Shown: positions 3,808 to 21,291 of the stretch, piece by piece
How positions within the stretch are numbered: the first letter of the stretch is position 1
Layout: each line of letters begins with the position of its first letter
DNA from: a bacterium
GTDB taxonomy: Bacteria > CAIWAD01
NCBI GenBank assembly: GCA_030685015.1
Contig: JAUXWS010000006.1
Coordinates: 1-29,113, forward strand
Direction of reading: 5' to 3'
Length of the DNA stretch: 29,113 nt
Notes under the pieces: generated by a model
The model's input: only the letters and a program-made list of their open reading frames with translations
The model's database searches: none
What the model was told of the DNA's origin: nothing
Made by a program: the position numbers and the translations under genes

Positions 3808-4028
3808 CTAGTGGACTGATTCTCGTGAGATGACGGATGATGAAGTGCATAGGCCGTCCAGCGCAAGGCGTCCGCGCCGCCGGCGCAGTGGGGCTGCGTC
3901 AAGGCGCGGCAACGCGGCGATGGGCGGCCTGGGCGCTTCCCGTAGGGTTTGCGAGGTTGCCAACGATCCATCTCCCATGCATTGTGCAGCAAACAGCATT
4001 CGGCAGATCACGGGAATTGGTCCACTAG
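3808..4028. mobile_element. MITE-like element with long terminal inverted repeats, CTAG-bounded
   Basis: The left end CTAGTGGACTGATTCTCGTG and the reverse complement of the right end, CTAGTGGACCAATTCCCGTG, match at 17 of 20 bases. The match continues more weakly to about 35 bases. The 221-bp unit carries no convincing gene. Its right CTAG (4025-4028) is also the left CTAG of the next element. It resembles a miniature inverted-repeat transposable element; the transposase family that would move it is not in the window. Confidence 0.65.
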
Positions 4029-4194
4029 CAGCCTGTCGGGCTTGGGCCTTGGATGGGATTCGCGCCCAAATCGTGGCCGGTTTTTCGGAATTTTCGAAGA
4101 GCATACTGGTGGTCTGTTCAAGAAAATTGCGGAAAAATCCGGACCGATTGGGGCGATGAAGACCGCCAAGTGGCCAAGTCCGACAGACTGCTAG
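4025..4194 (+). mobile_element. MITE-like repeat, copy A
   Basis: A 170-bp unit flanked by CTAG. The left end CTAGCAGCCTGTCGGGCTTG and the reverse complement of the right end, CTAGCAGTCTGTCGGACTTG, differ at two bases. Inside lies GGGGCGATGAAGACC, which recurs in copy B (8364-8524) and, with one change, in copy C (21015-21169). The right-hand CTAG supplies the TAG stop codon of lexA. No gene of its own is evident. Confidence 0.8.
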
Positions 4195-4841
4195 CGATAG
4201 CGGCGCATCAACCCGGTCACCTTGCCCGCGATGCGGAACTCCGGGCTGGTCCCTTCCACGAACAGGGGTTCGTAGCGGGCGTTGGCCGGCTGCAGACGGA
4301 TGCGGTCCTGCTCCGGGAAGTAGAACTTGACGGTGGCCTCCTCCCCGATGAGGGCCACCACCATGTCGCCGGCGCGCGCCGAGTCCTGCACCTGGGCGAA
4401 AACGAGGTCCCCGTCCAGGATGCCCGCCTCCACCATGCTGTCGCCGCGCACCTCGAGGGCGAAATGCTCGTCGCCACGCAGCAGCTGGGTGTCCACCTGC
4501 AGCATCTCCTCCACATGCTCCACCGCCAGGATTGGTTCGCCGGCAGCCACCCGCCCCAGCAGGGGCACGCTGCGCACGCTCAGTTCCAGGATGCGGCCGG
4601 CGGCGAGGGCGGCGGGCGTCAGCTCCAGGGCGCGGGCGCGCCCAGCCACCCGCAGCAGGTAGCCCTTCCGCTCCAGGGCGTCCAGCAGCACCTTGACGCC
4701 GTTGGTGGACTTGATGCCGAAGCGCTCACCGAGTTCCCGGTAGCTGGGGGGCGTGCCGCCCTTCTCCAGGGCCTGGCGCAGGTAGGCCAGCAGCTCTTCC
4801 TGGCGGCTGGTGAGGTTGTCGTTGGCGCCGCGCGGGCTCAT
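4191..4841 (-). CDS. lexA: LexA repressor, SOS-response autoprotease
   Basis: 216 residues. The N-terminal winged helix-turn-helix is LTSRQEELLAYLRQALEKGG with TPPSYRELGERFGIKSTNGV. The cleavage site is Ala100-Gly101 in GRVAAGEPILA, the catalytic Ser is Ser135 in RGDSMVEAGI, and the catalytic Lys is Lys172 in EATVKFYF, so self-cleavage on RecA filaments should work. ATG at 4841 follows GGAGGGAGC, a strong ribosome site. A GAAC-N4-GTTC operator lies just upstream, predicting autoregulation. The stop TAG coincides with the edge of MITE copy A, so the element abuts the last codon (CGC, Arg). The nearby dinB is a likely regulon member, but no clear box was found in front of it. Confidence 0.95.
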   Translation of the reverse strand: MSPRGANDNLTSRQEELLAYLRQALEKGGTPPSYRELGERFGIKSTNGVKVLLDALERKGYLLRVAGRARALELTPAALAAGRILELSVRSVPLLGRVAAGEPILAVEHVEEMLQVDTQLLRGDEHFALEVRGDSMVEAGILDGDLVFAQVQDSARAGDMVVALIGEEATVKFYFPEQDRIRLQPANARYEPLFVEGTSPEFRIAGKVTGLMRRYR

Positions 4842-4855
4842 GCTCCCTCCGGATA

Positions 4856-4883
4856 TTGTTCATAGGATAGTGAACAAATGTTC
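4856..4883 (-). promoter_or_regulatory. LexA operator region (SOS box)
   Basis: GAACAAATGTTC at 4872-4883 is a perfect GAAC-N4-GTTC box of the type used by Bacillus and actinobacterial LexA. It overlaps a second inverted repeat, TTGTTCA-N8-TGAACAA, at 4856-4877. Both lie 15-42 bases upstream of the lexA start, where a bound repressor would block transcription. Confidence 0.8.
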
Positions 4884-5374
4884 CAGATGCAAGGGGGCGT
4901 GGGAAGAGTTCCAATAGCTTTCCCAGCGCCTTCTGTCCACCCAGGCGATTGAGAACTGCTTGGCGGCCATGATGTCAAGGCGTGATCAAAGCACCGACGT
5001 GTGGCTGATGGGAACTTGCGTCGCCATGCAGAAACATGGTGCTTCAACGGGGCACTATCGAAGCCGCCAGGCGTGGGGACAGATTTTCTTCGTCATTGGC
5101 GATGGGGTGGCGCATGAGGCGAAGCGGGCGCGGAGTGATTGACGGATCGGGAGTGATGGCCGTGGCGCGACGGTAGCGCATTAGATGGCGAAATGGTAGT
5201 GTTGGTGGTGGCGTAATGGTAGCGCAATACCGGGCGGACGGGATGCGTAGGAGGCCGCGAAATGATGGTGCTGTGCGAAAAGAAAGGAATGGTCCGGGCT
5301 GGATTGACGAGTCATTGCGTTTGTCAGTCCAGACGGCAAGACGCGGTGGAACTCCTTGCTGTGATTGTGAACGA
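4884..5374. other. Intergenic stretch between lexA and the AAA ATPase gene
   Basis: About 490 bases without a supported gene. The short open frames here show no family pattern. Between 5160 and 5230 there are loosely repeated GGTAGCGCATTA / ATGGTAGTG / ATGGTAGCGCAAT units, too irregular to call an iteron. It presumably holds the promoter of the downstream ATPase. Confidence 0.4.
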
Positions 5375-6649
5375 ATGACTGGCTATCTGACCCGTGTGGT
5401 GGATGCCGAGCTGGATGAGCTGCTGCCCGGCTTGCCAGCGATCGCCCTTGAAGGCCCCAAGGGTGTGGGCAAGACCGAGACGGCCCGGCGCCGTGCGCGC
5501 ACGATCCAGCGCCTGGACGATCCAGCGCCGCGAGCCGTCGCCGAGGCGGATCCGGCGCAGGTGCTCACTGGCGAGCCGCCTGTACTGGTTGACGAGTGGC
5601 AGCGCGTGCCGGCGGTATGGGACGCGGTCCGGCGCGCCGTCGACGACGGGGCCGGACCGGGCCGCTTTCTGCTGACGGGCTCGGCCAGTCCGGCAGCGCC
5701 GCCGACGCATTCCGGCGCTGGCCGGATCGTGACACTGCGCATGCGCCCGCTGACGCTGGGCGAGCGTGGCGTCGGCCGGCCCGGCGTCAGCCTCAAGCAC
5801 GTGCTGCAAGGCGGCCGGGAAGAGATAGAGGGCCGGACGGACCTCGTCCTGGCGGATTACGTGCAGGAGATCACGGCCTCGGGTTTCCCCGGCATCCGCA
5901 CCTTGTCGGGACGCGCCCGGCGGCTGCAACTGGACGGCTACCTGCGCCGCATCATCGACACGGACTTCCCGGAGCAAGGCCACACGGCCCGCCGGCCCGC
6001 CGTGCTGGAGCGCTGGCTGGCGGCCTATGCCGCGGCCACGGCCACCACGGCCTCCTACGAGACGATTCGCGATGCCGCCACGAGCGGCCAGGGCGAGAAG
6101 CCGGCGAAGACGACGACGCAACCCTATCGGGACATCCTGGAGCGGCTGTGGATCGTCGACCCAGTTCCCGCTTGGCTGCCGTCGGGCAATCGCCTGAATC
6201 GTCTTTCCCAGCCGCCGAAGCACCATCTGGCCGACCCGGCGCTGGCCGCGCACCTCCTCGGACTGGATGCCGAAGCCCTGTTGACGGGCGCCGGACCGGG
6301 ACCGGAAATCCCGCGCGACGGCACGCTGCTCGGGCACTTGTTCGAATCACTGGTGACCCTCTGCGTCCGCGTCTTCGCACAGGCGGCTGACGCCCGTGTC
6401 AAGCACTTCCGCCAGCAGGGCGGGCGGCAGGAGGTCGACCTGATCGTGGAAGGGGCCGATCAGCGCATCCTTGCCATTGAAGTGAAGCTCAGCGGCGCCG
6501 TGGGGGATCGTGACGTCAAGCATCTGCTCTGGCTGCGCGATCAGCTCGGCCACGATCTCATCGACGCCCTGGTGATCCACACGGGTCCGCAGGCCTACCG
6601 CCGCAAGGACGGGATCGCCGTGGTGCCGGCGGCGCTGCTCGGCCCCTGA
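5375..6649 (+). CDS. AAA_14/DUF4143 ATPase with C-terminal nuclease-like domain
   Basis: 424 residues. Walker A is GPKGVGKT (27-34), Walker B is VLVDEW (about 70-75), and LLTGSASP is the sensor strand; together they identify the AAA_14 family. The middle part (LADYVQEITASGFPGI, then YLRRIIDTDFPEQG) and the end (HFRQQGGRQEVDLIVEG ... ILAIEVKLSG) form DUF4143, whose D/E-VD...E-V-K pattern looks like a PD-(D/E)XK nuclease core. These cytoplasmic proteins are common and patchily distributed; their physiological role is not settled. ATG at 5375 is preferred because the family begins about 20 residues before Walker A; the frame is open upstream to 5216, and the ribosome site is weak. The following gene, rsgA, is a remnant. 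Confidence 0.88.
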   Translation: MTGYLTRVVDAELDELLPGLPAIALEGPKGVGKTETARRRARTIQRLDDPAPRAVAEADPAQVLTGEPPVLVDEWQRVPAVWDAVRRAVDDGAGPGRFLLTGSASPAAPPTHSGAGRIVTLRMRPLTLGERGVGRPGVSLKHVLQGGREEIEGRTDLVLADYVQEITASGFPGIRTLSGRARRLQLDGYLRRIIDTDFPEQGHTARRPAVLERWLAAYAAATATTASYETIRDAATSGQGEKPAKTTTQPYRDILERLWIVDPVPAWLPSGNRLNRLSQPPKHHLADPALAAHLLGLDAEALLTGAGPGPEIPRDGTLLGHLFESLVTLCVRVFAQAADARVKHFRQQGGRQEVDLIVEGADQRILAIEVKLSGAVGDRDVKHLLWLRDQLGHDLIDALVIHTGPQAYRRKDGIAVVPAALLGP

Positions 6650-6712
6650 TCGTTGCCCGGCGCGTCTGAAAACGCCGAAAGCTACACTCCGTGCGCAAAC
6701 GAAGGCGCACCC

Positions 6713-7013
6713 ATGCACGCACAAGCCCTTGACGCCCTCGGCTGGTCCGGGCGCCGGCAGGCCCTCTTCGCTCCCCACGCCGCACGCGGCCTCGTGGCGG
6801 GACGAGTCGTGCGCGGCGACCCGGGCAAGTCCTCCGAGCTGCAGGTCCTGGCCGCCAACGTGGATCTCGTCTTCGTCGTCCATCCCATCGCCGCGGCGCC
6901 CAACCTGCGCGCATCGAGCGGGAGCTGTCCCTCGCCAGCACGCCGACGAGGAGCGCAAATGGAAGACGGTCGCCAAAGCGGCCAAGGAATTCGGCAAGAT
7001 GAAAGGTCGCTGA
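6713..7013 (+). pseudogene. rsgA: rsgA remnant (ribosome-assembly GTPase), internally deleted
   Basis: The start reads MHAQALDALGWSGRRQALF and GLVAGRVVR, as in RsgA N-termini. It then jumps to GDPGKSSELQVLAANVDLVF, so about 50 residues of the OB-fold are missing. After PNLR a base is lost (IERELSLA continues in the next frame). Then the sequence jumps straight to the RsgA C-terminus, ERKWKTVAKAAKEFGKMKGR, ending at 7013. The GTPase G-motifs and the zinc site are gone. RsgA normally releases RbfA and matures the 30S subunit. At least two deletions and two frameshifts make this a clear relic; a functional copy would be expected elsewhere in the genome. Confidence 0.85.
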
Positions 7014-7052
7014 GGCCTGGCAGGGGACAGGCCGCCAAGCGGGAGACCACAC

Positions 7053-7730
7053 ATGGCACCATCTCAAGCTGGAATCTGTGCTCTCTGCGGCGGGCACTTG
7101 GCTTTTGCAGACATGGCGACGCATCTCAGCACCTGCGCCCCCGCCCACGCCGCCGTGAGCGGCGCACCAATCAAACTTCTCCAACTGCTTGTCCGCTGCC
7201 CGGAGCGGTCAGACTACTGGCTGGTTCTGGAAGCGAAGGCCCACGCCAAGCTGCGGAGTCTGGATTCCTTTTTGAGGCAGATCTGGTTGGAGTGCTGCGG
7301 GCACATCAGCGCCTTCGAGGTGGAGGACACGACCTATCTGTCCCATCTGGATCCATTCGAGCACGACGCAACGCAGGCCCGCAGCATGGAGGCGTCCATT
7401 GGCCACGTGTTCACGAGCTTGGGTCAAACCATCGGCTATCTCTACGACTACGGTGACACGACCACGCTGGAATTGCGAGCGGAATGCCTGCGCGAGGGCC
7501 GGATCGGCCGGCGTTCCATCCGCCTGCTGGCGCGCAACGATGCGCCGCTGCACGTGTGTGGCGTCTGTGGCAGGCCTGCCACCGCGATCTGTCCCTATTG
7601 CCTGGGAGACGCAGGCGCATTCTGTTGTGATGAGCACCGGCGCTCCCATGCCTGCAATGAACCCGAGTCCTTCCTGCCGATCTGCAACTCGCCGCGCATG
7701 GGCGTGTGCGGTTACACGGGCGAGGTCTGA
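7053..7730 (+). CDS. pRiA4b ORF-3-like protein flanked by zinc-binding domains
   Basis: 225 residues from ATG at 7053, with GGGAGA upstream. The N-terminus has a zinc finger (Cys9, Cys12, His24, Cys28). The middle (LRSLDSFLRQIWLECCGHIS, then GQTIGYLYDYGDTTTLELRA) matches the plasmid pRiA4b ORF-3 / IS1096 TnpR-like family, whose function is unknown. The C-terminus has a second Cys/His cluster, CGVCGRPATAICPYC, followed by FCCDEHRRSHACN, like a treble-clef or MYND/HIT-type zinc domain. It stands alone between the rsgA relic and a small winged-helix gene. A nucleic-acid or protein-binding role is plausible but not shown. Confidence 0.75.
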   Translation: MAPSQAGICALCGGHLAFADMATHLSTCAPAHAAVSGAPIKLLQLLVRCPERSDYWLVLEAKAHAKLRSLDSFLRQIWLECCGHISAFEVEDTTYLSHLDPFEHDATQARSMEASIGHVFTSLGQTIGYLYDYGDTTTLELRAECLREGRIGRRSIRLLARNDAPLHVCGVCGRPATAICPYCLGDAGAFCCDEHRRSHACNEPESFLPICNSPRMGVCGYTGEV

Positions 7731-7850
7731 GGAGCCCTGCAAGCACATGGCCGCCGTCCTGTGGAGCCGTTCGCCACCAAAGGTCTGATGGTTCGCATCC
7801 GCATCCGTTTGGATCATCCGTCACGTAGGGATTGAATGAAGGGAGACACC

Positions 7851-8033
7851 ATGGACGCCAAGGCGCAGGCCGTGCTGACGGCCATGAAGAAGGCGGGCAA
7901 GCCGGTCAAGGGGGCGGACGTGGCCGCCGCCACGGGCCTGGACCCCAAGGAGGTGGGCAAGATCATCGCCGTGCTGAAGAAGGACGGCCAGGTGGTGTCG
8001 CCCAGGAATTGCTTCTACGAGCCGGCCAGGTAG
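7851..8033 (+). CDS. Small winged-helix DNA-binding protein
   Basis: About 60 residues forming one helix-turn-helix: AQAVLTAMKKAGKPVKGADV, AAATGLDPKEVGKIIAVLKK and a wing DGQVVSPRNCFYEPAR. This is the layout of very small MarR/winged-helix proteins seen in several phyla, with no partner domain. ATG at 7851 is chosen because GGGAGA lies 5-6 bases upstream; an in-frame ATG at 7836 has a poorer site and would add five residues. The target is unknown. It ends just before the broken hydrolase gene and could be its former regulator, but nothing shows this. Confidence 0.72.
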   Translation: MDAKAQAVLTAMKKAGKPVKGADVAAATGLDPKEVGKIIAVLKKDGQVVSPRNCFYEPAR

Positions 8034-8075
8034 ACATGTCCAACGCCCCTGTCACTTCCAACGCGGACGGCCCGC

Positions 8076-8923
8076 CGGACGGCCCTGGGCTATGCGCCCG
8101 GCCCGGAGGGCCCCGTCCCGGCCGAGTTCGTCCACATGAGCGTGCCCTATGCGGCGGGCGCGCTCGATTCCTCCACCGAGGACCTTCTGCGCTGGCAGAC
8201 GAGCCTGCACGGCGGGAGGCTGCTCACGGCGGAGGGCCTGGGCGAGATGGGCAGGCCCGTGCGCGAAGACTATGCCATGGGGCTGATCCGGCGCGAGCAG
8301 AAGGGGATCGTCGTGCTGGAGCATGGCGGCGGGATCGAGGGCTTCAACACGCAGCTGGCCTGGCAGCCTTTCGGACTTGGCCGCTTCGCGGTCTTCATCG
8401 CCCCTGCCGGTCCCATTCGACGCAGATTTCTTGCGAGTAAATGCCATTACGCGACGCGAGATCTCCGCCGAATCGCCCTCGACATGGGCGCGAATCCCAT
8501 CGAAGGTCCAAGCCCGAAAGGCTGCAGGTATCCGGACCGTCGCATCACGGTGGCGGTTCTGGGCAACTTGAACGACACGGCGCCCGCTGAGATCGCGGGC
8601 CGCCTGGGCGCCTTGGCCCATGGACTGCCCGTGGACCTGCCGGAGCCGAGGCAAGCAGTGGAGCTGCCCCGCGCAGACCTGAGGAGGTGGTCGGCGACGA
8701 TCAACTGACCCCGGACTTCCACATCCGCGTGTTCCTGGAGGGGGACCGGCTCATGGCCCAGGGCACGGGCCAACCGGCATTGCCTCCCTTTGCCGAGGCC
8801 AGGGACCGCTTTATTCTCAAGCCAGTGGATGCCCGGCTGCACTTCACCCGCGACGAGACCGGCCGCGTGTCCAGTGGCGTGCGGCTCCAGGCTGGACGGG
8901 AACTTCCCCTCGTCCGCAAATAG
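8076..8923 (+). pseudogene. Serine hydrolase (beta-lactamase/PBP-like), broken, with in-frame MITE
   Basis: Reads ALGYAPGPEGPVPAEF, then AAGALDSSTEDLLRWQTSLHGG and VVLEHGGGIEGFNTQLAW, the C-terminal half of class C beta-lactamase-like hydrolases including the HGGG motif. A 162-bp insertion (54 codons) then intervenes before RYPDRRITVAVLGNLND. Near 8690 the frame shifts, and the DUF3471-like tail (VGDDQLTPDFHIRVFLEGDR to GRELPLVRK) continues in another frame to 8923. The N-terminal half with the SxxK nucleophile is absent. So the gene has lost its 5' half, gained a MITE and shifted frame. Such enzymes normally act on peptides or esters outside the cytoplasm. Confidence 0.82.
8364..8524 (-). 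mobile_element. MITE-like repeat, copy B, inserted in the serine hydrolase gene
   Basis: 161 bp with inverted ends CAGCCTTTCGGACTTGGCC and, from the other side, CAGCCTTTCGGGCTTGGACC. In reverse orientation it aligns end to end with copy A (162 bp between the CTAG sites), sharing GATGGGATTCGCGCCCA and GGGGCGATGAAGACCGC. The flanks are CTGG and CAGG, not a clean CTAG duplication. Its length with one extra base is a multiple of three and it has no stop on the plus strand, so the host frame stays open through it. Confidence 0.82.
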
Positions 8924-8966
8924 AACAGGCTCCGCCCCGTGGGGAGAGTCGGAATCACGGGCTCTC

Positions 8967-8995
8967 TTGACATCAAACCGACCGTCCGGTATGTT
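8967..8995 (+). promoter_or_regulatory. Sigma70-type promoter with embedded TetR operator
   Basis: TTGACA (8967-8972), a 17-base spacer and TATGTT (8990-8995), just before the TetR-family start at 9002. ACCGACCGTCCGGT (8977-8990) in the spacer is an imperfect palindrome resembling ACCGACCGGTCGGT, and a similar site lies before the ene-reductase gene. This predicts autorepression. Confidence 0.7.
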
Positions 8996-9001
8996 TGTCT
9001 C

Positions 9002-9619
9002 ATGAGTCGCACTGCCCATAATCCTGAAGCCACGCGCCGCGCCCTGCTCAAGAGCGCCGCGGTCCAGATCCACCGTCATGGGTTCCAGGCGGCCAGCCTG
9101 GAGGCCATCCTGGCTGAGACGGGCGTGACCAAGGGCGCGCTCTACCACCACTTCCGCAACAAGCACGAACTGGGCTTGGCGGTCCTGCATGAGGTCTTTC
9201 GCGAGGACATGCTGCGGGACTGGCGGGAGGCGCTGGGGGAGGGGGATCACCCCGTCGAGGCGATCCTGGCGCTGTTGGAGCGACAGCAGCGTGGGGCCAG
9301 CGCCTGTTCCGTGGAGTGCGGCTGCCCGTTGAACAACTTGGCCCAGGAGATGGCCAGCGTGGACGAACCCTTTCGTGTGGCCATCGAAGAGATCATGTCC
9401 ACCTGGCGCGGGCTGATCGCCTCAGCCCTGGAGCGGGGGCAACGCGCCGGCATGGTGCGGCCCGGGGCGGATGCCGCCGGGGAGGCGGTCTTCATCACCA
9501 GCCTGATCGAAGGGGCGGCGGGGGCGGCCAAGACCGCCCGGGATCCAGACTTGCTGCGACAGGCGACGACAGTCCTGGCGAGCCATCTGGAGAGTCTGCG
9601 GGCCGAGCGACCAGCATGA
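9002..9619 (+). CDS. TetR-family transcriptional repressor
   Basis: 205 residues. The N-terminal DNA-binding domain is complete: TRRALLKSAAVQIHRHGFQA, SLEAILAETGVTKGALYHHF, RNKHELGLAVL. The C-terminal ligand domain includes CSVECGCPLNNLAQEMAS, a Cys-rich segment common in the subgroup that regulates ene-reductases and senses electrophiles. ATG at 9002 lies 7 bases after the -10 hexamer, so the message is nearly leaderless and no clear ribosome site is present. An operator-like palindrome lies in its own promoter and another precedes the downstream ene-reductase gene, so it probably represses both and is released by a reactive small molecule. Confidence 0.9.
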   Translation: MSRTAHNPEATRRALLKSAAVQIHRHGFQAASLEAILAETGVTKGALYHHFRNKHELGLAVLHEVFREDMLRDWREALGEGDHPVEAILALLERQQRGASACSVECGCPLNNLAQEMASVDEPFRVAIEEIMSTWRGLIASALERGQRAGMVRPGADAAGEAVFITSLIEGAAGAAKTARDPDLLRQATTVLASHLESLRAERPA

Positions 9620-9639
9620 CTTTTTGCGCCGGGTAAAAT

Positions 9640-9653
9640 ACCAACTGGTCGGT
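9640..9653 (+). promoter_or_regulatory. Predicted TetR operator before the ene-reductase gene
   Basis: ACCAACTGGTCGGT is a near-palindrome matching the ACCGACCGGTCGGT pattern of the site at 8977-8990. It lies 38 bases before the ene-reductase start, next to a TAAAAT that could be a -10 element. Confidence 0.6.
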
Positions 9654-9691
9654 TTGAAAGAGCGAAACGAGTCAATAGAAAGGGCGCTGAC

Positions 9692-10771
9692 ATGAGCAAG
9701 CTGTTCGAGGCCACCCGACTGGGGAATCTGGAGTTGCGCAACCGGGTCGTGATGGCCCCCATGACCCGCTGCCGGGCCACGGCCGACCACCAGCCCACGG
9801 ACCTGATGGCCGAGTACTACAGCCAGCGGGCCGGGGCCGGGCTGATTGTGACGGAAGGGACCTCCCCCTCCCCCCAGGGTCTGGGCTATGCCCGCATTCC
9901 CGGTCTCTTCAACGAGGAGCACGTGGCGGGCTGGCGCCAGGTGACGGATGCGGTCCATGCCGGAGGTGGAAGGATCGTGGTCCAGCTGATGCACTCGGGT
10001 CGCGTCTCCAGCCGGCTCAACATGCCGGCCGCTGCGCGGGTGGTGGCGCCCTCGGCGGTGGCGATGAGCGGCGAGATGTGGACAGACGGGCAAGGCATGC
10101 AGCCCCACACCATGCCCGAGGAAATGAGCGAGGCCGACATCGCGGGGGCAGTTGGCGAGTTTGCCGCCTCAGCGGCGCTGGCCATCGAGGCCGGATTCGA
10201 TGGAGTTGAGTTGCACGGCGCCAACGGCTACCTCATCGACCAGTTCCTCAACACGGCCAGCAACCAGCGCACGGACCGCTGGGGCGGCAGCGTGGAGAAC
10301 CGGATGCGGTTCGCCCTTGACGTGGCGCGGGCGACGGCGGCGCGCATCGGCGCGGGACGCACGGGCATCCGTCTTTCTCCCTACGGCGCCTTCAACGACA
10401 TGCGGCCGGATGCGGAGATGGACGCGCTCTACCAGCTTCTGGCCAAGGAGTTGGGGCGGCTGGGTCTGGCCTACGTGCATGTGGTGGACCACAGCTCGAT
10501 GGGTGCGCCGGCGGTGCCGGCAGAAGTGAAGGAGAGCATGCGCCGGGAATTCGGCGGGGCGATCATCCTGTCCGGCGGGTACGACCAGGCGCGGGCGGAG
10601 GCGGAGCTGGCGTTGGGCCACGGCGATGCCGTGGCCTACGGGCGGCCCTTCATCGCCAATCCGGATCTGGTGCGGAGAATGCGGGATGGGTTGGCGCTGG
10701 TGCAGCCGGACGCGAGCACCTTCTACACACCGGGGCCGGAGGGGTACACGGACTATCCAGTGGCCAATTGA
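9692..10771 (+). CDS. nemA: Old yellow enzyme family FMN ene-reductase (NemA-like)
   Basis: 359 residues, full family length. The FMN barrel begins LFEATRLGNLELRNRVVMAPMTR. The substrate motif is HGANGY (His175, Asn178, Tyr180), followed by FLNTASNQRTDRWGGSVENR. The phosphate-binding end is GDAVAYGRPFIANPDLVRRM. These enzymes use NAD(P)H to reduce activated C=C bonds of enones, maleimides and some nitro compounds in the cytoplasm. AAAGGG precedes the ATG. It follows the TetR gene by 72 bases with an operator-like site between, a typical detoxification pair. The symbol reflects the closest well-known relative; the true substrate is unknown. Confidence 0.9.
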   Translation: MSKLFEATRLGNLELRNRVVMAPMTRCRATADHQPTDLMAEYYSQRAGAGLIVTEGTSPSPQGLGYARIPGLFNEEHVAGWRQVTDAVHAGGGRIVVQLMHSGRVSSRLNMPAAARVVAPSAVAMSGEMWTDGQGMQPHTMPEEMSEADIAGAVGEFAASAALAIEAGFDGVELHGANGYLIDQFLNTASNQRTDRWGGSVENRMRFALDVARATAARIGAGRTGIRLSPYGAFNDMRPDAEMDALYQLLAKELGRLGLAYVHVVDHSSMGAPAVPAEVKESMRREFGGAIILSGGYDQARAEAELALGHGDAVAYGRPFIANPDLVRRMRDGLALVQPDASTFYTPGPEGYTDYPVAN

Positions 10772-10779
10772 CCAAAGCT

Positions 10780-10809
10780 CGTAGGGACACGGCGCGCCGT
10801 GTCCCTACG
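10780..10809. repeat. Perfect 30-bp GC-rich palindrome
   Basis: The half-site CGTAGGGACACGGCG is followed directly by its reverse complement. It lies just after the ene-reductase stop and before the YciI-like gene. It could be a REP-like element, a 3' hairpin or an operator. No T-run follows, so it is not a standard terminator. Confidence 0.75.
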
Positions 10810-10854
10810 GAGAACCACATTCCATCCAATCAGCCTGCAACAGGAGCCATGGCC

Positions 10855-11187
10855 ATGCAATTCCTCGTCAGCGCCCACGACGGCACCGACGCGCAAGCCC
10901 AGGCCCGCCGCCTGGCCGCCCGCCCCGCGCATCTGGAGCTGGGCCGTCGCCTGCGCACGGAGGGTCGGCATCTCTATGGCGTGGCCCTGCTGGACGAGGC
11001 GGGACAGATGACCGGCTCCGTGCTGATTGTGGACTATCCGTCGCGCGCCGAACTGGACGCCTGGCTGGCGGAGGAACCCTACGTGACCGGCAAGGTCTGG
11101 GAGCGGATCGTCGTGAGCCCCTGCCGGGTAGGGCCCGCCTTTCTCGATCAGGACACCCGCGTCAAGCTGGAAGGGTTGGAGCCGTGA
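10855..11187 (+). CDS. YciI-like (YCII-related) protein
   Basis: 110 residues. The ferredoxin-like core MQFLVSAHDG, HLELGRRLRTEGRHLYGVAL, GSVLIVDYPSRAELDAWLAEEPYVTGKVWE is the YciI pattern, whose members are small dimeric proteins with a conserved His/Asp pair and mostly unknown roles. ATG at 10855 is preferred because AGGAG lies 8 bases upstream and the family starts with MxF; an in-frame ATG at 10849 is too close to that site. The stop overlaps the GTG start of the PspC-domain gene by four bases, so the two are translated as a pair. Confidence 0.78.
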   Translation: MQFLVSAHDGTDAQAQARRLAARPAHLELGRRLRTEGRHLYGVALLDEAGQMTGSVLIVDYPSRAELDAWLAEEPYVTGKVWERIVVSPCRVGPAFLDQDTRVKLEGLEP

Positions 11188-11387
11188 CACAAGAAGACAG
11201 AACCTTGCGTCGATCCGCGGACGCCATGATTGCCGGTGTGTGCGCGGGACTGGCCGAACGGTTGGGCTGGCCGGTGACCCGGTTCCGGTTGGGCTACGCG
11301 CTCTTGTCCATCCTCAGCGCGGCCTTCCCCGGAATCCTGGTCTACCTCGCGCTGTGGTTCCTCATGCCGGGGCCGCGGCGCCATTGA
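11184..11387 (+). CDS. PspC-domain small membrane protein
   Basis: 67 residues starting with GTG inside the preceding stop (GTGA overlap), with GGAG just upstream. LRRSADAMIAGVCAGLAERL, RFRLGYALLSILSAAFPG and ILVYLALWFLMP make a complete PspC domain with one long hydrophobic segment at the C-terminus. PspC proteins sit in the inner membrane and relate to envelope stress, often as partners or anti-regulators. Here there is no pspA or pspB next to it, only the YciI-like gene, so the role remains open. Confidence 0.85.
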   Translation: MTQEDRTLRRSADAMIAGVCAGLAERLGWPVTRFRLGYALLSILSAAFPGILVYLALWFLMPGPRRH

Positions 11388-11430
11388 CCGGCGCCGCCTG
11401 GATTCATGCGAACTGCATAAGGAGATAAAC

Positions 11431-12072: not shown

Positions 12073-12107
12073 CAGAAGAGATCCAGCAGTATTCCTGGGC
12101 CGGCGGG

Positions 12108-13416: not shown

Positions 13417-13714
13417 GCTTCGCCTCCCCCTCTTTCGGGCAGGAAGATGGAGAAGCCGCGTCAGCCACAGCCGGCCGGCCATCTGTTTGCCGGCACGGAC
13501 GGAAGTCGCATGGCGAATCGGCCGCCAACGCGATACGCCACTCGCAGGATGCCGGGCGGTGGGTGCCGTCAATGCCATGCGGGAGCTGCAGAGATTCCCG
13601 CTTTCTCAAGACAAACTCCCTCACGTCTCTTCGACCAGGAACGCCACCAGGATTCCCGGCGTTGGGGATCAAAAGGTCGCCCCGGGCGCCCCAACATCAA
13701 AGAAAGGAAGAATC

Positions 13715-14032
13715 ATGAGGATCCAGATCAACACCGACAGCCATGTTGAGGTCAATGACCGGCTGGCCCGCAAGATCAGGGAACTTGTCAGAGGCGGGCT
13801 GGAGCGCTTCGGCGGCCAGGTCACGCGCGTGGAGCTGCACTTGAGCGATGAGGACGGCGACAAGTCGGCCGGCGTCGAAAGTCTGCGCTGCCTGTTGGAA
13901 GCCCGGCTGGCCGGCCTGCAGCCGGTCTCGGTGAGTCATCAGGCGCCAGGCCCGGAGCAGGCGGTCGACGGCGCTGTCGAGAAGGTGAGGCGCGCCCTGG
14001 AGAAGACCATTGGCCGCCTGGGCAAGCGCTGA
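13715..14032 (+). CDS. HPF/RaiA-like ribosome-associated protein
   Basis: 105 residues from ATG at 13715, preceded by GAAAGGAAG. MRIQINTDSHVEVNDRLARK, LERFGGQVTRVELHLSDEDG, CLLEARLAGLQPVSVSHQAP and VDGAVEKVRRALEKTIGRLG fit the short S30AE fold used by hibernation-promoting and ribosome-interface proteins, which bind the 30S decoding centre in slow growth. It lacks the long C-terminal dimerisation domain, so it is the short type. Between it and the divergent dtd lie about 300 bases that must hold both promoters; no clear hexamers were seen. Confidence 0.85.
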   Translation: MRIQINTDSHVEVNDRLARKIRELVRGGLERFGGQVTRVELHLSDEDGDKSAGVESLRCLLEARLAGLQPVSVSHQAPGPEQAVDGAVEKVRRALEKTIGRLGKR

Positions 14033-14134
14033 GCAAGGACAGCACGGCAGGCGTGGACGGTCAGCGCATTCCCGTTGAAGGCGCGGCTGAATCATGGTTG
14101 GGCGGCTGACGAAGCACATGTCGCAATCAGTCCA

Positions 14135-14147
14135 GGGGACAGACCCC
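14135..14147. repeat. Short GGGG-ACAGA-CCCC hairpin
   Basis: A four-base-pair GC stem in the region before the malic enzyme gene. The surrounding AGTCCAGGGGACAGACCCC looks like a REP-type element, though only one copy is in the window. Confidence 0.3.
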
Positions 14148-14247
14148 GGCGGTTGGTACCTTGCCCGCGACACAACTGATTGAGCAGTTCAGGACCATTG
14201 CCGCAGGTGGTCATCCGGCCATCGCGGGCCTTTCCACGGGAGGAAGC

Positions 14248-15597
14248 ATGCGGCACGAGACCGGCCTGCGTTGCACCAAGCGGTTGCGGGTGAAGCTGCC
14301 TGACGCGCCCGGCTGGCTGGGGCGCCTTGTCACACGGATGGGTGAGTTCGGGGCACGCTTCGGTGAGATTGTCACCATCCACAACGGCAAACGCGACCGC
14401 ATCCGCGACCTGGATGTCACGGTTCAGGACGAAGGCACTTTCGACCGCATGTGCGATGCCATCCGCGAGATGGAAGGCATCGACCTCATCGCCGTGACGG
14501 ACGTGGTGCGCGAACGGCACCTGGGCGGCAAGATCGAGATGGTGGGCCGCGCCCCCATCCACAGCGCCGACGATCTGGGCATCGTCTACACGCCGGGCGT
14601 CGCCTCCATCTGCCTGCAAATCCAGGCCGATCCCGAGCTGGCCTGGACCTACACCGGTATCCAGAACACGGTGGCGATTGTGACCAACGGCACGGCTGTG
14701 TTGGGTTTGGGCGACATCGGCGCGGTGGCGGGCATGCCGGTGATGGAGGGCAAGGCCCTCCTCTTTCACCAGTTGGCGGGAATCAGTGGTGTGCCCATCC
14801 TGCTGGACAGCAAGGATCCGGACGAAATCGTGGCGGCAGTCAAGGCCATCGCCCCCACCTTCGGCGCCATCAAGCTGGAGGACATCCGCGCCCCCGAGTG
14901 TTTCGACATCGAGGCCCGCCTGGACGAGGCGCTGGACATCCCGGTCATGCATGACGACCAGCATGGCACGGCCACGGTCGTTCTGGCCGCGCTGCTCACC
15001 ATCGCCCGGTTGCGCCACCTGAACCTGCACCGGTCCACTATCGGCATCATCGGACTGGGCGCCGCTGGCGCCGGCATCCATCAATTGCTCAAGGCCTACG
15101 GAGTGGAGACAGTCTATGGGGCGGACATCAATCCAATAATGATCGAGCGGTTCACGGCGCGCGGGGGGCAAGCCACCGATCTGGCAGGGGTGATGGCCAA
15201 GTCCAGCATGGTGATCGCCACCACCGGCGTTCCAGGCCTGATCAAGCCGGAACAGGTGCGCAAGGGGCAGGTCATCCTCGCCCTCTCCAATCCGGATCCG
15301 GAGATCCTGCCCGACGACGCCCTCGCCGCCGGTGCCGCCTTCGCCGCCGACGGCAAGGGCGTCAACAACGCCATGGCCTTCCCGGGATTGTTCAAGGGCG
15401 CCCTGCGGGCCCGTGCCACCACGATCAACGATGCCATGAAGATCGCCGCCGCCAAGGCCATTGCCCAGCATGCAATGGAAGGCGAACTGATGCCCAACAT
15501 CCTGGATCGCTCCGCCCACGAAGAGGTGGCACGAGCCGTGGAGGCCACCGCGCTGAAGACCGGCGTGGTCCGCTTCAGTCGGCACCTGGAACCCTGA
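14248..15597 (+). CDS. NAD(P)-dependent malic enzyme with N-terminal ACT domain
   Basis: 449 residues. Residues 10-85 form an ACT domain ([20 protein letters not shown]), a likely amino-acid or effector sensor. The catalytic part follows: Tyr114 in [10 protein letters not shown], Lys169 in [12 protein letters not shown], metal ligands Glu211/Asp212 in KLEDIRAPE and Asp236/Asp237 in [10 protein letters not shown], then the Rossmann motif [12 protein letters not shown]. It oxidatively decarboxylates malate to pyruvate and CO2 in the cytoplasm, making NAD(P)H. ATG at 14248 is chosen for the strong GGAGGAAGC upstream; the frame is open to 14161 without family similarity. Such ACT-malic fusions occur in several phyla. 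Coenzyme preference cannot be read safely. Confidence 0.92.
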
Positions 15598-15659
15598 GCG
15601 CCACCACACCTGGATGAATCAGGCTGGGCAGGCGGGCGGCGGGACAGGCCGGACGCTCC

Positions 15660-16562
15660 TCACTTGATCAGGATGCCGCGCTGGCTCCCCACCAGGATCC
15701 CATCCCGCCACGCCGATACCACATACGTGCCACCAGGCAAGCCCCTCGCGTGCCACCGTGCCACATGAGCGCCGGGACCACGCGGACCCAGGTCCAAGGT
15801 CTCCACATGTCTCCCCAGCAGGTCATGGATCCGCAGTTCGAGCCGGCCAGGCAGTTCTGACTCGAAAGTGAGAAGCAGATCAGGATTGAAGGGATTGGGG
15901 GCCAAAGTGATGCAGGAAGAAAGTGGCCAGGTGGGCGGGGCAGCCACCGCGTTCAGCTCGAGCCCTTCCATGTGCGATGTGCCATTGGTGACGGAGACGA
16001 TCACGAAACTGTTGTTCAGGTCCACCAGGGCGCCACTGAAGGTGAAATCAAGCGTGCTTTCGTCCCGCAGCCCGATCCCCAGGGCCGTGGCGGCCCCCAC
16101 GAATTTGCGTTCAGCCTGGATCAGATCAAGGATCTCCAGCAGATCCAAACTGTCCGGCAGTTCGGCGGGAAAGGCCAGGCTGTCCAGATGCCACAACAGG
16201 AACAGCTGGACCGTGCTTATGGGATTGGGCACGGCCCCCGCCTCGATCGGACCCTCCGCCCGGTAGTAAAGTCCGAATACATGATAGGTGGTGTCTGGAT
16301 TGATGTTGCGCTTGGCGGCCAGGGCCAGCAGCTGCTCGGCGCCCGTCCCTTCCGTCGAGGCGATGAGGCCCCCCAGGCCCTCATCCAGTTCCGGAACCCA
16401 TTGGGTGGTGTCAATGCTGCCTTCCACCGCGAAAGTGCCGCTGAAGGGACCGAAGGGAATCTGCGCATACTGGAAGGACAGGGATCCTGTGTAGAAGACT
16501 TGGGCGCCCTGGGCCCACAGCTTTCCCACCAGGAGGGCAAGAATGAACAGATATCTCAACAT
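15660..16562 (-). CDS. Secreted protein with C-terminal sorting (T9SS-A/FlgD-like) domain
   Basis: 300 residues from ATG at 16562, behind AAGGAGG. A signal peptide (MLRYLFILALLVGKLWAQG) is followed by a beta-rich unknown region of about 200 residues, then ITLAPNPFNPDLLLTFESEL, LRIHDLLGRHVETLDLG and LPGGTYVVSAWRDG, the C-terminal domain used in FCB-group bacteria for secretion and surface attachment. The central part includes PIGPFSGTFAVEG-like strands and acid-rich segments and matches no family I recognise. It probably acts at the cell surface. It stands alone between the malic enzyme and the divergent barrel/propeller operon. Confidence 0.8.
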   Translation of the reverse strand: MLRYLFILALLVGKLWAQGAQVFYTGSLSFQYAQIPFGPFSGTFAVEGSIDTTQWVPELDEGLGGLIASTEGTGAEQLLALAAKRNINPDTTYHVFGLYYRAEGPIEAGAVPNPISTVQLFLLWHLDSLAFPAELPDSLDLLEILDLIQAERKFVGAATALGIGLRDESTLDFTFSGALVDLNNSFVIVSVTNGTSHMEGLELNAVAAPPTWPLSSCITLAPNPFNPDLLLTFESELPGRLELRIHDLLGRHVETLDLGPRGPGAHVARWHARGLPGGTYVVSAWRDGILVGSQRGILIK

Positions 16563-16990
16563 GAAGCCTCCTTGGGTCATGTGTGGCGAGCTGGCCGACT
16601 TCACAGCAATGGCTTCGCTGATTGAAAAACACGAAAGCGCCGAGATGTCAGGGCGCGCCCTGACACTTGGGCATTTCACCTGCAATCCGCCGGCCGCCTG
16701 TCATGGCACGCACCAGGTGGGTCGACCCGGGAGCGATGGACTTGGCTCGGCCGGCAGCAAGGCAGGCACTCAGAAATTAGTTCCCCCATCAGAGCGCTGC
16801 AACGGGAAACTCTTGCCCCTGAGAATCTTTCCCTCTTCGCCCATCCAGTCGAAGCCGGGATTGGATCCAACGCCTTGGGCTGAAACTCGTTGCATGTCAG
16901 CAGCTTGCGTGGAGGAGACTCGATGCCCTGCGCCATTCCCATCCGGCATGGCCTTTGCTCGCATGAGGGGGCCACAAACTTGCGGGAATC
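16563..16990. other. Divergent intergenic region
   Basis: About 430 bases between the secreted-protein gene (minus) and the barrel gene (plus). It contains one perfect 20-bp palindrome (16646-16665, listed separately) and no supported gene. The overlapping short frames show no family pattern. Confidence 0.5.
16646..16665. repeat. Perfect 20-bp palindrome
   Basis: TGTCAGGGCGCGCCCTGACA is self-complementary. It shares the GGCGCGCC core with the 30-bp palindrome at 10780-10809. It lies 84 bases upstream of the secreted-protein gene, so it could be an operator or a REP-like hairpin. Confidence 0.6.
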
Positions 16991-18469
16991 ATGCGACGAC
17001 TACGCTTCTGGCATGTCAGCATCCTTGGCGCGTTCCTGCTGGCCTCGGCCGGGGGCGCCCGCTATCGGCTCTCCGACTCCCCTCTCTTCCTGCACGACAT
17101 GCGGGCCGGTCGGGTGGAGTTCGAAGGTCAGGGCAAGCAGTTCATCTTCGAGGCCGACACCCTGCGACAGGAGTCCGCCTTTGGCCTTCGCTATGGCTTG
17201 ACACAACGCCTGGTCTTCGAATTCAGCTATCCCTACCTGATGGAATCGCTTGGCCCCCTTAGCAAGAGCGGCCAGGGGGATCTGGCCACCGCCCTGAGCT
17301 ACCGCCATCCCCTGTCAAACTGGCCCGGCATGAGCCTGGGATTGCGTCAAGCCCTCATTTTTCCCAGCGGGTTCAGAAGGGAACTGGTCGGTTTTGATCG
17401 CTTCACGGGCGGTCGCACCCAGGCGGAAACACTTGTCCAACTTGAGTTTGGAGATCGCCCCCAGGATCTTTCCACTCTTTGGCTGGCGGTCAATGGTGGG
17501 TTGCGCACGGACAACCACCTGGAAAACACCAAGATGCTGTGGGGCGCCTCCATCCGCTATCATCTGGTCCAGCGCTGGCTCTTTCTGGAAAGCGAGCTGG
17601 CCCAGGAGATGGCGACGGACACCAAGGAAGCCACCTACCAGTTCAGTGCCGGACTGGGCGTGAAACTGCCCTGGGGCTTCCAGGTACGGCTTGGGGCCGA
17701 AGAGCGGGTCATCTACGAATTGGACCGCTTTGGCCTTTATGCCGCCCTCGGCTGGAGCCGGCAACCGGTCATCCCCATCCGCATGCGCTATCGCCATCTC
17801 CACCCCGGACTGCAGAAGCGATTGGATGACAAGAACAAAGTCCCCTCCTTCACGCTTGAACCGGGCACCCCGGCCCTCCTGACGGAATCAGGCCGCCTGC
17901 CCTTCCTCCCGTTGAGGGTGGTGCTCCTTCCCTTTATCGAGGCAGATCAAGCGCCTGTGGCCGTCACCCTGTCACAGGCCTTCCATCGTGTCATCGAAGC
18001 GGACAGCAGTTTTCAGGTGGTGCCCCCGGCCGAGGTGGAAGCCTACCTGGACTTTCACCGGATGGCGTCCCGCGACCTGACGGAAGAGACCGCCATCAAT
18101 GAACTGGGGCGCTCCCTCAAGGCGGACCTGGTCCTGCGGGGGCGGATCCTCTCTTATCAACCCCGTCAGTTTCGTGGCCATGCCTTGCCGCCGCTGTTCG
18201 CCCGCAGCCGCCAGGCCGGCACTTTGGAGGCCCAGGCCTGGCTACAACAAGTGGACCATCCGGGGCCACCCCATTCAGCCAAACTAAGCTGGGAGGAGAG
18301 CGGTCCTGGTCGCTGGAGCCTCTTCACGGCCAAGCATGGCTTGCGCGAACGTCCGGGTTCCGCCCTTGAGCGCAGTGCCCTGACTCACCAGCTCCTGGAG
18401 TCCTGGAGCATATTGGCCGCCAACACACTTATGTATGAAGAGACGGAAGTGCTGGTGATAGATAAATGA
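16991..18469 (+). CDS. Outer-membrane barrel-like protein with CsgG/TolB-N-like C-terminal domain
   Basis: 492 residues. A signal peptide (MRRLRFWHVSILGAFLLASA) is followed by about 280 residues of alternating strands (AFGLRYGLTQRLVFEFSYPY, MLWGASIRYHLVQRWLFLES, GAEERVIYELDRFGLYAALG) typical of an outer-membrane barrel. A second part (LRVVLLPFIEADQAPVAVTL, SQAFHRVIEADSSFQVVPPA, INELGRSLKADLVLRGRI) resembles the CsgG/FlgT/LpoB-type fold that assembles envelope structures. The final segment ends in METEVLVIDK-like strands. The ribosome site is weak. The next gene, a lipoprotein, overlaps by ATGA, so the two are probably partners in the envelope. No precise family is recognised. Confidence 0.62.
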   Translation: MRRLRFWHVSILGAFLLASAGGARYRLSDSPLFLHDMRAGRVEFEGQGKQFIFEADTLRQESAFGLRYGLTQRLVFEFSYPYLMESLGPLSKSGQGDLATALSYRHPLSNWPGMSLGLRQALIFPSGFRRELVGFDRFTGGRTQAETLVQLEFGDRPQDLSTLWLAVNGGLRTDNHLENTKMLWGASIRYHLVQRWLFLESELAQEMATDTKEATYQFSAGLGVKLPWGFQVRLGAEERVIYELDRFGLYAALGWSRQPVIPIRMRYRHLHPGLQKRLDDKNKVPSFTLEPGTPALLTESGRLPFLPLRVVLLPFIEADQAPVAVTLSQAFHRVIEADSSFQVVPPAEVEAYLDFHRMASRDLTEETAINELGRSLKADLVLRGRILSYQPRQFRGHALPPLFARSRQAGTLEAQAWLQQVDHPGPPHSAKLSWEESGPGRWSLFTAKHGLRERPGSALERSALTHQLLESWSILAANTLMYEETEVLVIDK

Positions 18470-19989
18470 AAGCGCGACTCTACCATTTGGTAATCTTTCT
18501 AACCGTTTGGTTTGTGGCCTGCGCCAGGCCTCCTCATGAAGCCGAGGACCGCGCCCCGCAGATCCGCAATCTACGGGTGGACATGAGTGGCGCCACGCCA
18601 GGGTCCATCATCATGCTCAGGGCCGACATCACGGATCCCGATGGAGATTCCCTGGATGTCAGTTGGCAGGCAACCGTCGGTCTTATTGTGGCCAGCTTCC
18701 AGGATTCGGCCCGCTGGCAAAGTCCGGACAGCAGTGTCTATGCCAGGATCTTCGTCCAGGCGGTGGATCCGGCGGGCAACCTTGCCGCCGACACCCTCCG
18801 CTTCTGGGTCCACAACCAGGCACCAGTCATCCAGGAGCTGCGCGGGTCGGCCACCACTGTATTGAATGGCAACACCATCACCCTGTTCGGCAGGGTCCAG
18901 GATCCAGATGGGCATCCCGTCACCCTGCAGTGGTCAAGCCCGTGGGGCACCTTCAATCAAAGCACGGGAGACTCCGTCCGCTGGACCGTGCCTGATTCCA
19001 CCATGCACGCCTGGGCCAGTCTGGCGGCGCTTGACATCTACGGCGCCGTGACGAGGGACACCCTCAGGGTCATCGTCTACACAGAGGTGGGCTGCGCCTG
19101 GATCATCAGCCAAGGCGAACAGGAGATCGTCAAACTGTCCTCCATTGGTGACGAGTTGCTGCGCCTGGGTGGCTTCACGGACTTGCAGGATCTGGATCTG
19201 GACCCCGAGAACCGCCGCTTGTGGGTCTGTGAGGGTCAACCCCCTGCCCTGCACAGCTATGACTTGCGCGGCAGGCCGCTCTTCTCTGTCACGGCAGGAT
19301 TTGCCCGGCCTACCCGCCTGCGCAGCTGGTACCGAACCGGCAGCGTGCTGGTGCTGGATGGCGACAGCGCCCAAGTGGTCGAGATCAACCTCTTCGGCGA
19401 CCGCGAACTGCGCCGCATCGGCGGCCTGACCCGTCCCAACGCCCTGGATATTGATCAGCGCACCGGCGCGGTGTGGATCTGCGACGAGGGCAGCAACAAC
19501 CTCTTCCACATCGCCAACGGCTATGACGGCAGCATCGAGGACGTCTGGAACAGCCCGCACGTCATCCGCCGGGACGGCTACCAGTTTCCGGTGGACATCT
19601 CGGTGGAGGATTCGACCGGCGCCTGCTGGCTGGTGGACAAGGAGGCGGGGATGCTGGTCCGCTACGCGGCCAACGGCATCGACAGCCTCGTCGTCACGGG
19701 CTTCCAGAACCCGGTGGCCGTGTCGGCCACTTGGTCCCAGGGATTGTGCTGGGTGCTGGACAGGGGCCTGAACTCGCGGGCCCTGCGCTACTTCTTCGAC
19801 CAGGAGCAGGTGGCGGTGGACGGCCTGCTCTTTCCGAAAGATTTGGCATTCAACCGCATCGATTCGCATGTCTGGGTGCTTGACACGGAGCGCAACCGTG
19901 TGCTGCGCCTACGCCCGGACGGCAACTTGGCCGGCGCCTGGACAGACTTCGATTTCCCCACCCGCATCCGCATCAACGGCGGCTACTAA
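18466..19989 (+). CDS. Lipoprotein with Ig/PKD-like domains and NHL-type beta-propeller
   Basis: 507 residues. Lipobox with Cys19 in WFVACARP. Two Ig/PKD-like domains follow: APQIRNLRVDMSGATPGSII with DPDGDSLDVSWQA, and APVIQELRG with DPDGHPVTLQWSSPWG. From about residue 210 come repeated blades such as LQDLDLDPENRRLWVCEGQP, RPNALDIDQRTGAVWICDEG, FPVDISVEDSTGACWLVDKE and FPKDLAFNRIDSHVWVLDTE, an NHL/SMP-30-like propeller. Such folds bind proteins or sugars outside the cytoplasm. It starts inside the stop of the barrel gene (ATGA). Its 3' end overlaps the convergent TetR gene by 17 bases. Confidence 0.82.
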   Translation: MKARLYHLVIFLTVWFVACARPPHEAEDRAPQIRNLRVDMSGATPGSIIMLRADITDPDGDSLDVSWQATVGLIVASFQDSARWQSPDSSVYARIFVQAVDPAGNLAADTLRFWVHNQAPVIQELRGSATTVLNGNTITLFGRVQDPDGHPVTLQWSSPWGTFNQSTGDSVRWTVPDSTMHAWASLAALDIYGAVTRDTLRVIVYTEVGCAWIISQGEQEIVKLSSIGDELLRLGGFTDLQDLDLDPENRRLWVCEGQPPALHSYDLRGRPLFSVTAGFARPTRLRSWYRTGSVLVLDGDSAQVVEINLFGDRELRRIGGLTRPNALDIDQRTGAVWICDEGSNNLFHIANGYDGSIEDVWNSPHVIRRDGYQFPVDISVEDSTGACWLVDKEAGMLVRYAANGIDSLVVTGFQNPVAVSATWSQGLCWVLDRGLNSRALRYFFDQEQVAVDGLLFPKDLAFNRIDSHVWVLDTERNRVLRLRPDGNLAGAWTDFDFPTRIRINGGY

Positions 19990-20716
19990 GCCCATTCATG
20001 AAGAGATTCATGATCTCGTCGGCCATCTCTGTGGCCGTGCGTAGTTCTCCGCCGTCCTGGAAGGCCTGGGTGTAGACGTTAAGGGTCTCCAGGAAGGTGG
20101 CGCAAAGTCGATCGGCATCCAGGCGGTGCAGCTCGCCAAGGTCCATGCCCCTGCTGATCACGTTGCGGATTCGGTCCCGCATCTCCTCGTGCAGTCGCTG
20201 GGACTGATGGTGCCAGGGATTGTCGGCCGGCTGCCTCAGGCGGTGCTGAAACTGCCGGTGCATGACGAAAAAATCCAGGTGCTTCCGGTAGTAGATGAGG
20301 AACATGACACAGAGAGCGCGCAACTGCAGGGCGGCGCCCCCCTCCCCGACCACTGACTTGCGCAGGATGCCCAACAGATCCTGGTATCCGTCCGCCAGGA
20401 TGCTGTGGAAGAGGTGCTCCTTGCTGGTGAAGAACTGGTACAGTGTCGGCTTGGCGAATTCGGCCTGACGGGCAATTTCATCCAGGGTGGTGCCGGTGAA
20501 GCCATGCTTGGCGAAGTGCTGGCGGGCGACATCCAGAATTTCACGGCGACGTTGGCTGCGTTCCCGGGCCCGCCGCCCCAGCGGCGCCTCCTCGTCGGCC
20601 ATGTCTGCTGGTGGTGAAGCGTTTCGCGGTTGCATGCCCTGGGCCACTTGAAGGAAGGTTGAGGCGGGCAAGGCTGGTTGTCGCGCCTCCGGGGCCAGCA
20701 CGTCATGGTTGTCCAT
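19973..20716 (-). CDS. TetR-family transcriptional regulator
   Basis: 247 residues from ATG at 20716, with AAGGGAGGACC upstream. After a disordered 50-residue start comes the DNA-binding domain: RRREILDVARQHFAKHGFTG, TTLDEIARQAEFAKPTLYQF, FTSKEHLFHSILADGYQDLL. The C-terminal domain (LCVMFLIYYRKHLDFFVMHR, FLETLNVYTQAFQDGG) fits the TetR_C_7/AcrR-like groups. The ligand and targets are unknown. It converges on the propeller lipoprotein gene. The long N-terminal extension is unusual for the family; an internal ATG (MADEEAPLGRR) could be the true start. Confidence 0.88.
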   Translation of the reverse strand: MDNHDVLAPEARQPALPASTFLQVAQGMQPRNASPPADMADEEAPLGRRARERSQRRREILDVARQHFAKHGFTGTTLDEIARQAEFAKPTLYQFFTSKEHLFHSILADGYQDLLGILRKSVVGEGGAALQLRALCVMFLIYYRKHLDFFVMHRQFQHRLRQPADNPWHHQSQRLHEEMRDRIRNVISRGMDLGELHRLDADRLCATFLETLNVYTQAFQDGGELRTATEMADEIMNLFMNGLSSRR

Positions 20717-21291
20717 CGGTCCTCCCTTGTTTGGCCGCACCAATCTGGCACTTGGGCAATGTACTGGCAAGTAAAATTGGAAACCTAATGGAAGACATTT
20801 GATTTCATTATGGTGGTCAATCAGATACCATGAAGTCTTGTCTCAGGCGGGACGGCGTCCGCATTCGTCCTGATCAGCCCCAGCCAACAACGCCTCAACC
20901 CATTGGCAAATTGTCCATGTCCGTCGTGCGCTTGGAAGGGTCCCAAATTGAAGGGGGGCACCCCCGAAACATGGGTGGCGCCACCCCCCGTGGACTCGGA
21001 GAGATGTGTTGCGAAGCCTTGAGTCCTTCGTGGTCTTCCTCGCCCTTGGTGGCCTGGATTTTTCGCAGCGTCCTTTCACATACCACCAGCATGCGCCGCG
21101 AGATCTCCAAGGAACCGGTCTCGACCGAAGGTGAATCCAGTCAAAGGCCCAGGCCCGACCGACCGCTTGAGCGAAAGAATGGCGGCAAGGTTTCGTCCTC
21201 GCCACAATCTTTGTCACTTTTGTTGCGCTGGAATCCACCCAAGGACTGATTTGTTGTTTTCATCGGGACGATAAAGAATTGTCATTGCTGG
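20717..21291. other. Intergenic region with MITE copy C and a GC palindrome
   Basis: About 575 bases between the TetR gene and the signalling cassette. GGGTGGCGCCACCC (20973-20986) is a perfect palindrome inside a G/C-run region, and 21015-21169 is the diverged third MITE copy. The short frames on both strands are not convincing genes. The last 50 bases should hold the promoter of the kinase gene. Confidence 0.55.
21015..21169 (-). mobile_element. MITE-like repeat, copy C, diverged
   Basis: Read on the minus strand, it aligns with copies A and B: CGGGCCTGGGCCTTTGACTG at the start, GGAGATCTCGCG as in B, GCATGCTGGTGGTATGT as in A, GCGAAAAATCC as in A, and GGGCGAGGAAGACCACGAAG near the end. The terminal inverted repeats are degraded (GGTCGGGCCTGG versus a shortened AGTCC/AAGGCT end), and no CTAG flank remains. 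It is an old copy. Confidence 0.68.

Follow-up and report, generated by a model that had tools for sequence, protein, structure and literature searches.

The usual account of bacterial MITEs is of recent relics peculiar to one genome. REP sequences, which go with RAYT proteins, are another kind of small dispersed repeat, each a palindrome of 20-40 bp associated with a tyrosine transposase and leaving no target duplication. Among the small bacterial MITEs are the Correia elements of Neisseria, Chunjie of Geobacter uraniireducens (178-235 bp) and QMITE1/2 of Coxiella (PMC10969869, PMC5896051), while the Rickettsia palindromic elements (RPE) are palindromes of about 150 bp which lie in frame within protein genes (PMC10969869). 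The family described here was found in a window of 29,113 bp, the whole of one contig (C6) of a 3.61 Mb draft bacterial genome in 105 contigs (GCA_030685015.1, here G000). Like Correia elements, Chunjie and the QMITEs it is small, lacks a transposase gene, has terminal inverted repeats, folds into a hairpin, occurs in tens of copies and is mainly intergenic, but it differs from them (Chunjie being compared by description only) in having a CTAG target and in occurring in several phyla at a near-constant length. As with RPE, three intragenic copies can be read through in frame; however, only these 3 of about 40 copies in G000 are clearly within genes, most of the others lying between genes with a placement driven by CTAG, and the terminal repeats are those of a DDE transposon, so we do not class the family with RPE.

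There is also a likeness to the CTAG-ended subgroup of the IS1182 insertion sequences (NCBIfam NF033551), which have the same arrangement of CTAG followed by a terminal sequence of about 15 bp and the same CTAG target. These insertion sequences are 1.5-1.6 kb long and carry a transposase and, in the copies inspected, are unlike the MITE beyond the outer 19 bp.

Copies of the element in the window and its genome

Copy A (positions 4029-4190, plus strand) belongs to a young subfamily and, at 162 bp, is one base longer than the 161-bp consensus. It lies between target-site copies of CTAG at 4025-4028 and 4191-4194, the right-hand one giving a TAG stop codon to a lexA-like gene (4191-4841, minus strand; LexA_DNA_bind and Peptidase_S24 domains), so that the end of this gene is the exact border of the element. 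No promoter or terminator signals above those of shuffled sequences were found at copy A. The left-hand CTAG is also the right target-site copy of a neighbour, E2, a second MITE-like family of about 218 bp (3811-4028) which directly adjoins copy A and has the borders CTAG-TGGACTGATTC...GAATTGGTCCA-CTAG. E2 has 15 matches in G000, 5 in the sister species G002 and 3 in G001, and another E2 stands beside a MITE at G000:C13:40094-40377. Copy B (8364-8524, minus strand) is a 161-bp member of an older subfamily with the flanks CTGG and CAGG, and lies in frame inside an open frame (8034-8705, plus strand) whose match to a beta-lactamase/serine-hydrolase is weak (19.8 bits, under the 27-bit cut-off). 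Copy C (about 21016-21155, minus strand) is eroded and has lost both ends.

A preliminary description, made from the window alone, had aligned these three copies end to end as one family of different ages with C degraded, and had predicted a high genomic copy number, all of which holds. A superfamily profile matched A, B and C with E-values of 4e-36, 4e-32 and 3e-8 and gave 90 matches in G000, which correspond to 54 distinct places because the palindrome is matched on both strands; the family is thus not confined to the three copies from which a MITE was proposed. Copy A as the query recovered full-length copies of 93-97% identity from about 20 places, as well as older ones with identities as low as about 70%, and copy B revealed the second, older subfamily, some members of which are 182 bp. 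Full-length copies range from 159 to 195 bp, within the size expected of a MITE (less than about 600 bp), and contain no transposase gene. Two sister species, G002 and G001, also have the family, and no members were found in G003.

One copy, at G000:C28:14717-16428 (L056), is split by an insertion sequence whose transposase frame, of 467 aa, is IS1380-like by eye; element positions 88-93 are present on both sides of the insertion. The frame was considered as the element's own transposase and rejected, as it belongs to a nested foreign insertion. At G000:C36:49899-50020 and near position 132 of G000:C104 (L018, L046), MITE ends pass into GAGCCTATCCGTGAATAAT / AGAGCTTATCCGTAAATA near contig ends, a different sequence that is probably the terminus of another insertion sequence.

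Target site and unfilled orthologous sites

Young copies in G000, located without use of their flanks, have the form CTAG|CAGCCTGTCGG...CCGACAGGCTG|CTAG, with the terminal inverted repeat CAGYCTGTCGGRCTTGG at both ends. CTAG stands on both sides in 9 of the 16 young full-length copies for which both flanks are available; the remainder mostly show one-step flank changes (CCAG, CTGG, CTTG), with a few further off, and in some young copies the two flanking tetranucleotides are unlike each other.

Unfilled orthologous sites, as expected for a MITE, were found for three insertions by comparison with G002. At site A, G002 reads TTCAC-CTAC-CGATAG where G000 has CTAG - E2 - CTAG - A - CTAG, both elements being absent, and at site B it reads CCTGG-TATCC with the element absent. 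In the reverse case, G002 carries an element between two CTAG at G002:C46:10624-10782 where the window has a single GTAG (about 11129-11132). Site C was too diverged to display an unfilled site. A single tetranucleotide in the unfilled state against two in the filled state at all three sites supports a 4-bp target duplication; the unfilled tetranucleotides (CTAC, GTAG and CTGG) are each one base off CTAG, and the rule for the target may be CTAG only or something looser. Elsewhere, at G042:C23:1633-1966 (L265), two tandem elements have one CTAG in common, which shows that a duplicated target can be used again.

Related elements in other bacteria

An exact pattern for the element end including CTAG, CTAGSAGYCTGTCGGRCTT, was found in at least 119 stretches in GTDB genomes and in 27 in viral contigs; queries of plasmids and phages gave no credible match. 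Among the pattern matches listed are beta-, gamma-, alpha-, delta- and zetaproteobacteria, Verrucomicrobia and others, as labelled. Many are inverted pairs forming elements of about 159-161 bp that can be aligned with the G000 family over their full length, with near-constant length and an alignable interior in beta-, gamma-, zeta- and deltaproteobacteria. When the terminal 17-20 bp were removed, G000 and G002 copies still matched a profile of the proteobacterial interior in the same register with up to 21 bits, compared to 6.7 bits for the best of 2000 shuffles.

In ten genomes to which such loci led, 6-148 matches each were counted among at most 150 scored candidates, with both strands included so that these are not copy numbers, and a Thiocystis genome with the autonomous element gave 2. 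Eleven dispersed 169-bp copies in Pseudomaricurvus alcaniphilus are 100% identical, each with CTAG on both sides, and such identity within one isolate genome indicates recent movement. The perfect flanks in these genomes come partly from selection, as the pattern that retrieved the first loci contained CTAG, and the profile that gave more copies in G041, G042 and G044 included the CTAG columns.

IS1182-type insertion sequences with the same ends

Some pairs of ends, spaced at 1.4-1.6 kb, enclose a transposase frame, and the outer sequence CTAG[C/G]AGYCTGTCGGRCTT, that is CTAG and about 15 bp, is common to the MITEs and to insertion sequences of 1.5-1.6 kb. The long frames read in elements of about 1.4-1.6 kb (for example L111, L207, L218, L170 and L129) are IS1182-like by eye, and the two transposases that were scanned, L111 and L218, both exceed the NCBIfam cut-off for IS1182. 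Among the pairs inspected, no element was recognised that combined these ends with a different type of transposase. The MITE has the same 19-bp ends as autonomous IS1182-type elements in other bacteria, and one such element with CTAG ends (L251, 1441-3016) lies in the Extensimonas genome that holds the richest set of small elements. Because likeness to the inspected insertion sequences is confined to these outer 19 bp, none of those seen would give the MITE by simple internal deletion.

The window has no transposase with such ends, as had been reported for it, and the matching autonomous elements are likewise found in other bacteria rather than in G000. A search of G000 for a resident autonomous element (with PF01609, the L111 transposase and an inspection of isolated ends) gave decayed copies only, together with one intact IS1182-family transposase, the sole intact one in that genome, at G000:C43:122827-124050 (L226), which is without CTAG-type ends. 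In G004, of the same class as G000, an IS1182 fragment at a contig end stands beside such an end. A relative of the L111 transposase was not found in 7 of the 10 searched MITE-bearing genomes reached through the loci. These two absences count little against an IS1182 mover, as draft assemblies easily lose multicopy insertion sequences.

The element is an imperfect palindrome

Terminal inverted repeats of about 20 bp had been proposed for the element, and inverted ends are indeed present, but the inversion does not stop there and runs through the entire element as a single imperfect palindrome. Two conserved internal blocks, GATGGGATTCGCGCCCA and GGGGCGATGAAGACC, had been placed outside these repeats but form opposite arms of the hairpin and pair with each other. 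Copy A folds as a single hairpin of -99.3 kcal/mol compared to -54.6 (sd 4.5) for shuffled sequences (z -9.9).

In an alignment of 35 sequences standard pairs filled 92% of the pair cells and 28 of the 39 arm pairs had changed on both sides. The covariation score was 0.477, whereas shuffles gave 0.146 and sliding the structure along the alignment gave no more than 0.15. All five measures exceeded all 500 shuffles and every slid version; as the structure was derived from the same alignment and kinship inflates such tests, it is the size of these differences rather than their count that should be weighed. G-U pairs were rare, with 26 A-C mismatches to 13 G-U (cluster-weighted, on the aligned strand), and a weak wobble excess appears if the opposite strand is taken as the RNA. 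With so few G-U pairs, a palindrome kept at the DNA level, or correction of one arm templated by the other, fits at least as well as selection on an RNA. The Rfam covariance models gave no match, and for this reason and the scarcity of G-U pairs an RNA element was rejected as the sole reading.

Placement at stop codons and in-frame insertions

Outside the elements CTAG is depleted about 23-fold in G000 (25 in 187 kb, compared to 567 expected from base composition), and of these 25 background sites 16 are intergenic, 7 belong to stop codons and 2 lie within genes. Using a simple codon model for the gene calls, a predicted gene ends exactly in the flanking tetranucleotide at 11 of 40 elements, the lexA-like gene beside A included, which is the same fraction as for background CTAG (7/25; 28% each), so that target choice alone explains the placement in this genome. 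Elsewhere genes were called by open-frame length. By this measure 12 of 18 copies in Pseudomaricurvus adjoin a stop codon, compared to 24 of 70 for background CTAG (p = 0.017), CTAG again being depleted (70 vs 958), and in Sulfuricella the figures are 7 of 17 and 4 of 22 (p = 0.16). The corresponding test in Extensimonas is unreliable, since GC-rich DNA often holds long open frames by chance. Targeting of CTAG spares genes, as the tetranucleotide is scarce and most of its remaining sites are intergenic or form part of TAG stop codons.

An insertion of 161 bp with 4 bp of duplicated target adds 165 bp, or 55 codons, and so keeps phase; in the young consensus three frames are free of stops. Copy B is read through in frame as 55 codons with its 4 flanking bases, and other in-frame copies lie in a beta-helix protein (L004) and an FGE-sulfatase domain (L014). 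All three have coding-like codon positions on both sides.

Discussion

These dispersed copies with common borders, unfilled orthologous sites, recent identical members and ends shared with insertion sequences very likely form a non-autonomous MITE family moved in trans by an IS1182-family DDE transposase into CTAG or a near match. A transposase of this type is probably the mover and probably acted in this lineage in the past, as judged from sequence. Supplied in trans, such a cut-and-paste enzyme would recognise the outer end [C/G]AGYCTGTCGGRCTT plus CTAG, the element would be inserted at CTAG or a similar tetranucleotide, after which repair would leave one CTAG on each side. The duplicated CTAG would preserve a stop codon and make the insertion nearly harmless, and the element would become a long hairpin in a 3'-UTR or between genes, where it could affect mRNA ends.

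It is rather unlikely that mobility is secondary and that selection acts on the hairpin itself, whether in the form of RNA or of folded single-stranded DNA, for instance in a role as terminator, small RNA, RNase III substrate or stabiliser of 3' ends. The full-length fold, the retained and doubly changed pairs with their covariation score, the near-fixed length, the interior alignable across phyla even in its unpaired parts, and the frequent position directly after stop codons would all suit a selected hairpin. However, the excess of A-C mismatches over G-U pairs gives little wobble sign of selection on RNA, arm-templated correction of quasi-palindromes also yields double changes, Rfam has no match, and the stop-codon placement in G000 equals that of background CTAG. 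There is a smaller chance, which we consider low, that the elements are mobilised by another transposase, for example of a different CTAG-targeting DDE family, whose ends are like those of IS1182 by coincidence. The seven genomes where no L111 relative was found are in keeping with this, as is E2, an unrelated MITE-like family in the same genome that also lies between CTAG copies, but the frames inside elements with these ends are IS1182-like and no alternative type of transposase was recognised between them. REP/BIME sequences resemble the element in being extragenic palindromes in tens of copies, frequent at gene 3' ends and often beside stop codons; the element is longer, at 161 bp, has terminal inverted repeats in common with a DDE insertion sequence and a duplicated target tetranucleotide on both sides, and has unfilled orthologous sites, so we rejected membership of REP/RAYT and regard a REP/BIME-like or RAYT-driven origin as extremely improbable.

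In the open-licence literature searched, the end sequence was not found as an element, although it is present in one Geobacter omcE primer, and no paper was found that brings together a MITE, IS1182 and CTAG; an earlier description outside these papers is possible.

Beyond an IS1182-moved MITE family, we suggest tentatively, as a possibility short of an even chance, that these belong to a single ancient superfamily, spanning phyla, of 160-bp hairpin transposons, with an interior kept by selection on the hairpin and CTAG as a safe harbour, which would land on TAG stops and restore them by duplication so that a 3'-end hairpin acts on the mRNA. In contrast to the usual picture of relics limited to one genome, a single type of near-constant length with a homologous interior is found here across several phyla, at tens of copies in a genome, and no Rfam family represents it. 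The CTAG target accounts for its abundance with near-harmlessness, and the element offers a testable case for selection on a hairpin and for in-frame protein insertion outside Rickettsia.
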